Shown: one piece after another, positions 1,163-3,432 of the stretch
How positions within the stretch are numbered: the stretch's first letter is position 1
Layout: each line of letters starts with the position of its first letter
Source: Bacillota bacterium
Lineage (GTDB): Bacteria; Bacillota; Proteinivoracia; UBA4975; VEMY01
Assembly: GCA_009711825.1 (NCBI GenBank)
Contig: VEMY01000021.1
Span: 1 to 64,000 of the forward strand
Reading direction: 5' to 3'
Length of the DNA stretch: 64,000 bases
Notes under the pieces: model-generated
Database searches by the model: none
What the model was told of the DNA's origin: nothing
What the model saw: the letters and a program-made list of their open reading frames with translations, nothing else
Program-made: the position numbers and the translations under genes

Positions 1163-1191
1163 TTGACACCCTGCGTATGTTCTGATAATAT
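1163..1191 (+). promoter_or_regulatory. Sigma-A type promoter of trxBA
   Basis: A perfect -35 TTGACA (1163-1168), a 17-nt spacer and a -10 TAATAT (1186-1191). The expected transcription start is around 1198, inside the palindrome at 1191-1209. Confidence 0.8.
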
Positions 1192-1209
1192 ATACCCTGT
1201 GGGGGTATA
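1191..1209 (+). promoter_or_regulatory. CsoR/CstR-type operator overlapping the trxBA -10
   Basis: TATACCC-TGTGG-GGGTATA: perfect 7-bp inverted arms around 5 bp. The arm sequence and spacing match the TACCC-N5-GGGTA operators recognised by CsoR-family regulators (copper-sensing CsoR, persulfide-sensing CstR). It touches the -10 box and ends directly before the GGAGGAG ribosome site, so a bound tetramer should block transcription. No csoR/cstR gene is in the window. Confidence 0.65.
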
Positions 1210-1220
1210 GGAGGAGTAAG

Positions 1221-2168
1221 ATGGTAACTGATAAACTTTATGACTTAATTATTGTCGGTGGCGGTCCGGCAGGTCTTGCCGCTGGTTTGTACGCCGGCCG
1301 GGCAATGATGGATTGTCTGATTTTGGAGGGACAGGGCCCCGGTGGTCAGGTTATGATGACTCACGAGATTGAGAATTATCCCGGGTTTATTGACCCTATT
1401 TCAGGTGGCAATTTGTCGGCTAATATGTACAGCCAGACGTTGCGGTTCGGTGTCGAGTTTGTGTCTCAGCCGGTGCGGGAGTTAAAGATCAATGACAAGA
1501 TTAAGACCGTGAGAACTTCTGAAGGTGCTTTTCAGGCAAAAGCCGTTATTATCGCCACAGGTGTTACCCCAAGACTGCTTTCTGTGCCGGGCGAGGCAGA
1601 ATATACTGGACGCGGTGTGTCCTATTGTGCAACCTGTGACGGCGCATTCTTCCGGGATAAGACGGTAGCAGTTGTCGGTGGCGGGGATACAGCAGTTAAA
1701 GAAGCGTTGTTTTTAACCAAATTCGCTAAAAAGGTCTATTTAATACATCGCCGGGACCAACTGCGGGCCGAGCCGGTACAGCGGCAGCGACTATTGGCCA
1801 GTCCTAAAATCGAGCCAATTTGGAATACCGTTGTCGGTAAAGTTCATGGGGATGGCAATCGGGTGACCGGGTTGAGCTTAAACAGCCAGCAAGGCGGCAG
1901 ACCGCCCCAGGCCTTGCATGTTGATGGCGTGTTTGTGTTTGTAGGTCGCCAGCCCATGGGTCCCATGGAGGGGACAGGGCTGATTGTTGACACAGATGGG
2001 TATATTAAAACTGATGAGGATATGCAGACTAATTTACCCGGTGTTTACGCTGTGGGCGACGTGCGCAGTAAACGTTGGCGCCAGATAGTTACTGCGGTTA
2101 GCGATGGCTGTATTGCTGCGCTAAGTGCCGCCGAATATATCGAAGAAAATTTCAGGGAGGAAGACTAA
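1221..2168 (+). CDS. trxB: Thioredoxin reductase
   Basis: 315 residues, the usual length. It uses NADPH and FAD to reduce thioredoxin in the cytoplasm. An FAD-binding GGGPAG is at 13-18, the redox-active CATC at 136-139 and the NADPH-binding GGGDTA at about 153-158. A C-terminal YAVGDVR completes the FAD site. GGAGGAG lies 6 nt before the ATG. The stop TAA overlaps the trxA start (TAATG), so the two are translationally coupled. The promoter carries a CsoR/CstR-like palindrome, which suggests control by copper or by reactive sulfur species. Confidence 0.95.
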   Translation: MVTDKLYDLIIVGGGPAGLAAGLYAGRAMMDCLILEGQGPGGQVMMTHEIENYPGFIDPISGGNLSANMYSQTLRFGVEFVSQPVRELKINDKIKTVRTSEGAFQAKAVIIATGVTPRLLSVPGEAEYTGRGVSYCATCDGAFFRDKTVAVVGGGDTAVKEALFLTKFAKKVYLIHRRDQLRAEPVQRQRLLASPKIEPIWNTVVGKVHGDGNRVTGLSLNSQQGGRPPQALHVDGVFVFVGRQPMGPMEGTGLIVDTDGYIKTDEDMQTNLPGVYAVGDVRSKRWRQIVTAVSDGCIAALSAAEYIEENFREED

Positions 2169-2485
2169 TGGTTAAATCAATTACTGCCGGAGAATTTAAG
2201 GATACGGTTTTGGCCTCGGAGCGCCCGGTTTTGGTGGATTTCTGGGCTGAATGGTGTGGTCCTTGTCGAATGGTAGCGCCGGTTGTGGAGCAGATTGCAG
2301 ATGAGCTGGCAGACCGTTTGGAAGTTGTAAAAGTTAATGTGGATGATGAGTCAACTGTGGCTGCCGAATACAACATTTTAAGCATTCCGACGTTGATGGT
2401 CTTTAAAAATGGTGAAGTAGTCGAGACAATTGTCGGATTTCAAGCGAAACCCGATTTAATGGCCAAAATCGAAAAACATCTTTAA
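2168..2485 (+). CDS. trxA: Thioredoxin
   Basis: 105 residues with the canonical active site WCGPC (29-33) and the cis-proline loop SIPTLMVF near residue 75. It is the general disulfide reductant of the cytoplasm and is recycled by the TrxB encoded just upstream (1-nt overlap). It is followed at once by a strong terminator, so trxBA forms a two-gene operon. Confidence 0.95.
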   Translation: MVKSITAGEFKDTVLASERPVLVDFWAEWCGPCRMVAPVVEQIADELADRLEVVKVNVDDESTVAAEYNILSIPTLMVFKNGEVVETIVGFQAKPDLMAKIEKHL

Positions 2486-2510
2486 AAACCGGCTCAGCCG
2501 GTTTTTTTTT
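2484..2510 (+). terminator. Rho-independent terminator of trxBA
   Basis: AAAAACCGGC-TCA-GCCGGTTTTT followed by a run of T. The stem begins at the trxA stop codon. Confidence 0.9.
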
Positions 2511-2567: not shown

Positions 2568-3418
2568 TTGACAAGAGTAAAAATAGTTGTTGATTCAGCG
2601 TTGGACATCCCTAATGCAGCACTAACTGAGTATGGGGTAGTGCAGGTTCCGGTTTTGGTGCACTGGCAAGGCAAGGAGTACAAAGACAAAGTAGATATGG
2701 CTCCCGATCAGATGTTTAAAAAGTTTGCCGAGGTGCCGGAGCTGCCAACAACTTCTCAACCGGCTTCCGGAGAGTTTGCCAGGGTTTATAAGCATTTGCT
2801 CCAGGGGGCGGATGTGATTCTGTCTTTTCACATTGCAGCTAGTTTAAGCGGCACTTATAATTCCGCGGTAGCTGGAGCAGAGATTGTTAAGAATCCGGCA
2901 ATCCAAGTATTTGACACAAATTCCGTTAGTATGGGCGGAGGACTGCAGGCTTTAACTGCGGCCAAGACTTTGGCGGCCGGGGGGACATGGCAAGAAGCTT
3001 TGGCATCAGCGGAGAAGGTGGAGGAACGGGTGATGATTCACCTGGTTCTTGATACTTTGAGCAATGTCTTAAAAGGAGGACGTACCCGTTTGGAAGCGAC
3101 CCTGGCTCACTATTAAATATTAAGCCGCTGTTAGAAGTCACGGATGGCAAGATATCTACTGCCGGTCGCAGCCGCAGCCGCAAACGTTCCCTGAGCCAGT
3201 TGTTGGAGACAGTTGTAGCCGGGTGCCCGGATTGGGATGGGCATGGCTTTGTGGCTGCTGTCGGGCAAGGGGGCGCCAGAGAAGAACAAGCCCAATTTGC
3301 GGAAGCGTTAAAAGCCCGGCTGCCCAGGGCGGAAGTTATGCTGTATGATATTGGGATTGCGATTGCGACCCATGGTGGCCCGGGGACGCTAGGTGTTTGT
3401 TATTTTTGTAATGCTTAA
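2568..3418 (+). pseudogene. DegV family protein, disrupted by one frameshift
   Basis: DegV proteins bind fatty acids (FakB-like) in the cytoplasm for phosphorylation by FakA. The frame from the TTG at 2568 (after AGGAGGTCGG) gives the N-terminal domain: VVDSALDIP, the TSQPASGEF loop and the S-x-GTYNSA fatty-acid contact. It stops at 3114-3116 right after LEATLAH. The -1 frame continues from 3110 with LLNIKPLLEV, a typical DegV second half, and ends at 3416-3418. Joining the frames gives about 283 residues, the normal family length. One base is therefore missing near 3108-3112, either a true mutation or a sequencing error. The C-terminal GGPGTLGVCYF motif is intact. Confidence 0.85.
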
Positions 3419-3432
3419 ACGGTGATGCCTTA

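Follow-up and report, generated by a model that had tools for sequence, protein, structure and literature searches.

A conserved palindrome at the trxBA promoter is the predicted operator of a CsoR-family repressor lacking the copper-ligand histidine

The thioredoxin operon trxBA of the bacterium studied here starts behind a palindrome that we predict to be the operator of the genome's single CsoR-family repressor, a cysteine-based sensor that would repress trxBA and that most likely responds to a thiol signal; we put the probability of this reading at roughly 0.8. It is carried by the identity of the operator, the set of genes that share it, the presence of a single regulator, the loss of the copper-ligand histidine in that regulator and its linkage to thioredoxin genes, all of which were read from sequence. 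The features of the operon, numbered along the window (the whole 64-kb stretch of DNA that was analysed), and the regulator gene are as follows:

1163-1168, plus strand: -35 box TTGACA of the trxBA promoter, from the sequence
1186-1191, plus strand: -10 hexamer TAATAT of the trxBA promoter, with a 17-base spacer from the -35 box, from the sequence
1191-1209, no strand assigned: predicted CsoR/CstR-family operator TATACCC-TGTGG-GGGTATA, from pattern search and conservation
1209-1214, plus strand: Shine-Dalgarno sequence AGGAGG of trxB, from the sequence
1221-2168, plus strand: trxB, thioredoxin-disulfide reductase, 315 aa (TIGR01292, 366 bits against a cut-off of 343)
2168-2485, plus strand: trxA, thioredoxin, 105 aa (TIGR01068, 132 bits against a cut-off of 96.8)
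2487-2510, plus strand: probable intrinsic terminator AACCGGCTCAGCCGGTT-T(7+), end of the trxBA unit, read by eye
Contig C10, 164973-165269, minus strand: CsoR/CstR-family regulator, 99 aa (PF02583)

With its TTGACA box, 17-base spacer and TAATAT hexamer, the trxBA promoter is a good one by its sequence. The original prediction had placed a perfect palindrome TATACCC-N5-GGGTATA in the range 1163-1209, overlapping the -10 region and ending at the trxB ribosome site. The palindrome is indeed present, with two perfectly matching 7-base arms around a 5-base centre, and shares one base with each neighbour, its first base being the last T of the -10 hexamer and its last base the first of the Shine-Dalgarno sequence, ahead of the trxB ATG at 1221; the range as given covers promoter and operator together, 1163 being the start of the -35 box, while the palindrome itself occupies 1191-1209. 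Judged from the position of the -10 hexamer, transcription is predicted to start inside the palindrome, at about 1197-1199. The start of trxA overlaps the trxB stop (TAATG), and both genes were identified with NCBIfam models, above the curated cut-offs. The copZA operator of B. subtilis reads TACCC-N5-GGGTA. CsoR/CstR-family operators have been described as pseudo-palindromes whose arms are TAC/GTA and which contain at least four G or C in a row (PMC10318464), a description that fits the trxB palindrome TATACCCTGTGGGGGTATA with its TAC/GTA arms and its run of five G. Downstream of trxBA, a DegV-like gene (window 2568-3420) stops at 3116, and the same protein apparently continues in another frame to about 3418, which seems to reflect a frameshift or a sequencing error.

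The original prediction looked to further copies of the palindrome and to a CsoR-family gene in the genome, and both are there. Within the window, the trxB palindrome is the only match with fewer than three mismatches. A search of the genome (3.09 Mb, 77 contigs) with the 19-mer pattern returned three exact copies and one with a single mismatch, where base composition leads one to expect 0.011 exact copies, or 0.49 if one mismatch is allowed; the reversed pattern, used as a control on the same genome, gave no exact and no one-mismatch match. The exact copies precede ccdA-tlpA (C11), trxBA, and a zinc-ribbon gene with RIC behind it (C38), and the one-mismatch copy precedes the gene of a NapH-like 4Fe-4S protein (C68). 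By eye, all four are promoter sites, a few tens of bases from a start codon and behind a -10-like hexamer. A symmetric variant, CATACCC...GGGTATG, with two mismatches, precedes a HesB-like gene (C39), and at four of these five sites the palindrome abuts the -10 hexamer. A CopZ-like HMA gene adjoins the ccdA site.

Matches with two mismatches, ten in the genome against 9.8 expected and eleven in the control, are at chance level, so that it is the neighbouring genes and the orthologs, and not the count, that speak for the weaker sites. We kept the HesB-like site, a permease site (two mismatches) and a copA site (three), since orthologs elsewhere carry the site. The permease site, CATACCATGTGGGGGTATA, precedes two ArsP-like permease genes and then a CoA-disulfide reductase gene (451 bits, just under the cut-off of 458), and the copA site, CATACCCCCCAGCGGTATG, lies 33 bases before the start. 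The other two-mismatch matches that we inspected fall within or next to unrelated genes and were dropped, as was an exact TACCCN5GGGTA at C30:4890, which is inside a coding region.

The HesB/IscA-like gene (L152:926-1195, G000 C39) is a selenoprotein gene with a TGA at codon 31 (VAAGUGGPQ); the genome encodes tRNA-Sec (75 bits), and the stem that follows the TGA is not unusual in its stability. The TGA codon is conserved in order mates, and in Oceanirhabdus, Gracilibacter and a Peptococcaceae genome the operator is likewise followed by related TGA-containing genes (further loci of this group are L064, L074, L078, L177, L191 and L222). The gene behind the one-mismatch operator (L153:2113-3498, G000 C68) is a single open reading frame that joins the NapH-like membrane 4Fe-4S part to two further domains, G5 and peptidase M23, in an odd fusion. 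The small ArsP_1-like permease genes form a pair before the CoA-disulfide reductase gene (L154:2435-3447, G000 C9), the first of them also lies behind the operator in G010, G011 and G012, and their substrate is possibly a sulfur species.

Conservation was assessed in a class sample of 13 genomes, eight of the same order and five of another family. The palindrome stands directly before the ortholog of the window's trxB in all 13, without mismatch in the eight genomes of the order and with one or two mismatches in the five others. Aligning the eight trxB promoters from the order shows 100% conservation at the 14 positions of the arms, compared to 82% for the centre and 52% for the flanks; TTGAC(A) is equally far from the operator in each of the eight, and the abutment on the -10 hexamer is retained as well. 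In the other family the palindrome lies approximately 11 bases downstream of the -10 hexamer, not abutting it, indicating that operator and promoter were shifted relative to each other while the operator was retained. Second trxB-like paralogs, 13 of which were checked, have no such site, the best match showing three mismatches in one case and five to seven in the others. Of the 13 class genomes, at least 11 have the site, with zero to three mismatches, at the copA promoter; it was not found in G003 and G005, where the gene starts are incomplete. Seven of the eight order genomes have the ccdA site, G005 being the one for which it is not shown, and HesB-like genes have it in G000, G001, G005 and G007. 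By these counts, trxBA is the best conserved target.

Whose operator this is can be judged from its occurrence elsewhere. An open scan of 84,980 genomes, in which GGAGG had to follow the palindrome at a distance of at most two bases, gave 98 matching stretches; we read 80 of them, identifying the genes from their open reading frames. The next gene belongs to the csoR family in about 24 of the 80 loci and encodes a copper-type P-type ATPase (copA-type) in about 22; a streptococcal rhodanese gene follows in five and a HesB-like gene with an in-frame TGA in three, and the remaining named targets are trxB (three loci), ccdA (two) and small HMA proteins (two). The csoR promoters of relatives also carry the site, in G025 as a 19-mer identical to that of the window. 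G021, G034 and G035, all at least 94% complete, have neither csoR nor the site, and in the incomplete genomes G028 and G030 sites are present with no csoR found. Given the targets in the open scan, the csoR promoters of relatives and the lack of the site in well-assembled genomes without csoR, the assignment of the palindrome to the CsoR/CstR family, as the original prediction had it, is well supported at the sequence level. The order's own csoR promoter has a degenerate version, ATTACCGGGGGAGGGTATC/T, with four to five mismatches, which is conserved and overlaps the Shine-Dalgarno sequence, making autoregulation there uncertain.

The genome encodes exactly one PF02583 (CsoR/CstR-family) protein (97.3 bits against a cut-off of 22.8, E=1.7e-27), and each of the eight order genomes likewise has a single such gene. 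Aligned with the solved CsoR 4m1p (3.6e-17), the regulator has a Tyr opposite the His of 4m1p. At the Cu(I)-ligand positions, 83 of 107 aligned family members have Cys-His-Cys; the regulators of the order have Cys-Tyr-Cys (seven of eight) or Cys-Phe-Cys (one), so that the copper-ligand His is absent from all of them. Both family cysteines are kept, and an additional Cys replaces the Tyr that usually stands before the first, yielding a fingerprint C-C...Y/F...C in all eight genomes. By sequence, the order's regulator thus lacks the Cys-His-Cys ligand set of copper-type CsoR and has a dithiol without a His ligand, as in CstR, whose references read CNC, with Asn at the His position, where the regulator of the window genome reads CYC. 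In a tree of 105 rows and 89 columns, in which many forks are unresolved, the sequences of the order group together in a single clade (98% SH-aLRT), with G018, G022 and a Clostridiaceae sequence nearby; the CstR of S. pneumoniae, the only CstR structure reference in this comparison, lies apart from it with weak support.

The neighbourhood of the regulator gene follows a conserved pattern, tcdA/aspS - csoR - X - rarA, in which X is rseC in the order, a thioredoxin gene in 17 of the nearest relatives from other families and a thioredoxin reductase gene in G111; G321, G277 and G361 have the order csoR-rseC-trxA. Among eight csoR neighbours checked with profiles, six thioredoxins and one reductase scored above the cut-offs, while the rseC-like protein of G321 gave no profile match. 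The operator, with at most three mismatches, is found before csoR in 18 of 23 csoR-thioredoxin-type loci versus 0.9% of shuffled stretches, a contrast that its formal probability overstates, as these loci are partly related. Since csoR-trxA operons with the operator occur in other families and the operator stands at trxBA in the class, the tie between the CsoR-family repressor and thioredoxin is old, in cis there and in trans on trxBA here. The csoR-trxA and csoR-rseC-trxA operons, at their conserved place before rarA (L118, L135 and L336-L357, in other clostridial families), are apparently undescribed; among openly available papers, we found no report of a CsoR-thioredoxin operon.

Binding, repression and the nature of the signal we infer from this arrangement. 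A tetrameric repressor would cover the -10/+1 region of the trxBA promoter and block RNA polymerase, repression by exclusion being suggested by the position of the operator. Modification of the cysteine pair (C35 of one subunit and C64 of its neighbour), together with the extra C34, would release the repressor from DNA, and trxBA would then be made together with the rest of the regulon, namely ccdA-tlpA, zinc-ribbon/RIC, the HesB-like selenoprotein, the NapH-like protein, the permeases with CoA-disulfide reductase, and copA. It is conceivable that the thioredoxin thus produced reduces the modified sensor, closing a feedback loop. The signal is most likely thiol chemistry, be it sulfane sulfur, persulfide or disulfide stress: every regulator of the order has Tyr or Phe in place of the copper-ligand His, the targets are thiol, Fe-S and CoA-disulfide functions, and both family cysteines are kept and one is added. 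The CoA-disulfide reductase operon carries a two-mismatch site, and a CoA-persulfide reductase is regulated by CstR in E. faecalis (PMC9405070).

The original prediction had left copper and persulfide sensing side by side; its assignment to the CsoR family is upheld, and the features that bear on the signal point both ways: the regulator lacks the His, like CstR, yet does not group with the lone CstR structure, and copA is in its regulon. The same operator and repressor could thus respond to Cu(I), held by a cysteine-only site (C34, C35 and C64'), with trxBA, Fe-S repair and copA forming a copper-stress regulon. We regard this as a serious alternative, albeit a less probable one, as copA is among the targets and as those class mates whose single regulator is of the Cys-His-Cys type have the site before a similar set of genes (trxB, NapH-like and copA). 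The frequency of the site at copA promoters in the class and the CopZ-like HMA gene beside the ccdA site point in the same direction, and the extra Cys next to C35 could substitute for the lost ligand. However, that ligand is missing from every regulator of the order, in which the Tyr before the first Cys of copper types is a Cys, and copA is the only copper gene as such among the targets in the genome itself, the rest being thiol, Fe-S and CoA-disulfide functions.

Explanations that dispense with a CsoR-family repressor fare considerably worse. An Rrf2/IscR- or CymR-like protein, several of which are encoded in the genome, is a very improbable owner of the palindrome: Fe-S targets such as RIC, HesB-like and NapH-like would suit an IscR-type regulator, and Rrf2 proteins occur in all 41 genomes examined, but being present everywhere they do not track the motif, which the open scan finds mainly before csoR, copA and streptococcal rhodanese genes and which also sits in the csoR promoters of relatives. 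The three nearly complete genomes with neither csoR nor the site do have Rrf2 proteins, and this family was rejected. We give even less credence to an RNA element or a chance palindrome. A perfect inverted repeat beside a Shine-Dalgarno sequence could fold into a hairpin of the 5' leader, but as transcription is predicted to start inside the palindrome, transcripts in the order would lack part of the left arm; chance is excluded by the three exact copies against the 0.011 expected, and by the recurrence of the palindrome at unrelated genes in a fixed relation to the -10 hexamer.

The control of the thioredoxin system in strict anaerobes is little known. An operator at trxB across a whole class, together with csoR-trxA operons in many clostridial families, would provide it with a specific regulator and a set of targets; thiol homeostasis would then be a core function of the CsoR family, beyond metal export or sulfide detoxification, and the sensing of copper and sulfur would be joined to the main thiol-repair system in many anaerobic bacteria. 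Regulators with and without His on the same operator would constitute a natural series for the interconversion of copper and persulfide sensing. More tentatively, one may imagine a thioredoxin-linked CsoR branch across clostridia that senses both sulfane sulfur and Cu(I) by cysteines alone and makes its own re-reducing thioredoxin, with copper export, thioredoxin and Fe-S repair in one regulon, an idea that we consider possible rather than probable.

As far as our literature check reached, the kind of system is known; what is new is its set of targets, the loss of the His and the long-standing tie to thioredoxin. The CsoR regulon inferred for gut Firmicutes, comprising csoR, copA, HMA and DsbD_2/DUF2318 proteins (PMC4938975), resembles the present one in its CsoR-family operator and in its csoR, copA, HMA and DsbD_2-domain membrane protein targets. 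All its regulators have Cys-His-Cys, however, and it includes no thioredoxin gene, the word thioredoxin being absent from that paper, whereas the present regulon has trxBA as its best conserved target and a regulator that has lost the His. The target of CstR in S. aureus is one cst-type operon (PMC5480029), and in E. faecalis CstR controls a CoA-persulfide reductase and rhodaneses (PMC9405070). Like the CstR of these species and of streptococci, the regulator described here has two reactive cysteines without a His; the identical palindrome stands before streptococcal rhodanese genes, and a probable CoA-disulfide/persulfide reductase would be among its targets, as in CstR systems. Unlike CstR, it falls outside the CstR branch of the tree (with weak support), has an extra Cys and has copA and trxBA among its targets as well. 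TTHA1953 of Thermus thermophilus, which controls sulfur oxidation genes through a different operator, TACNNTACNNNNGTANNGTA (PMC10318464), is similar in belonging to the CsoR family, in its cysteine-dependent DNA binding, in its dispersed sulfur-related regulon and in the position of csoR far from the targets; it differs in that its operator has no G/C runs and in that its targets are those of sulfur oxidation.
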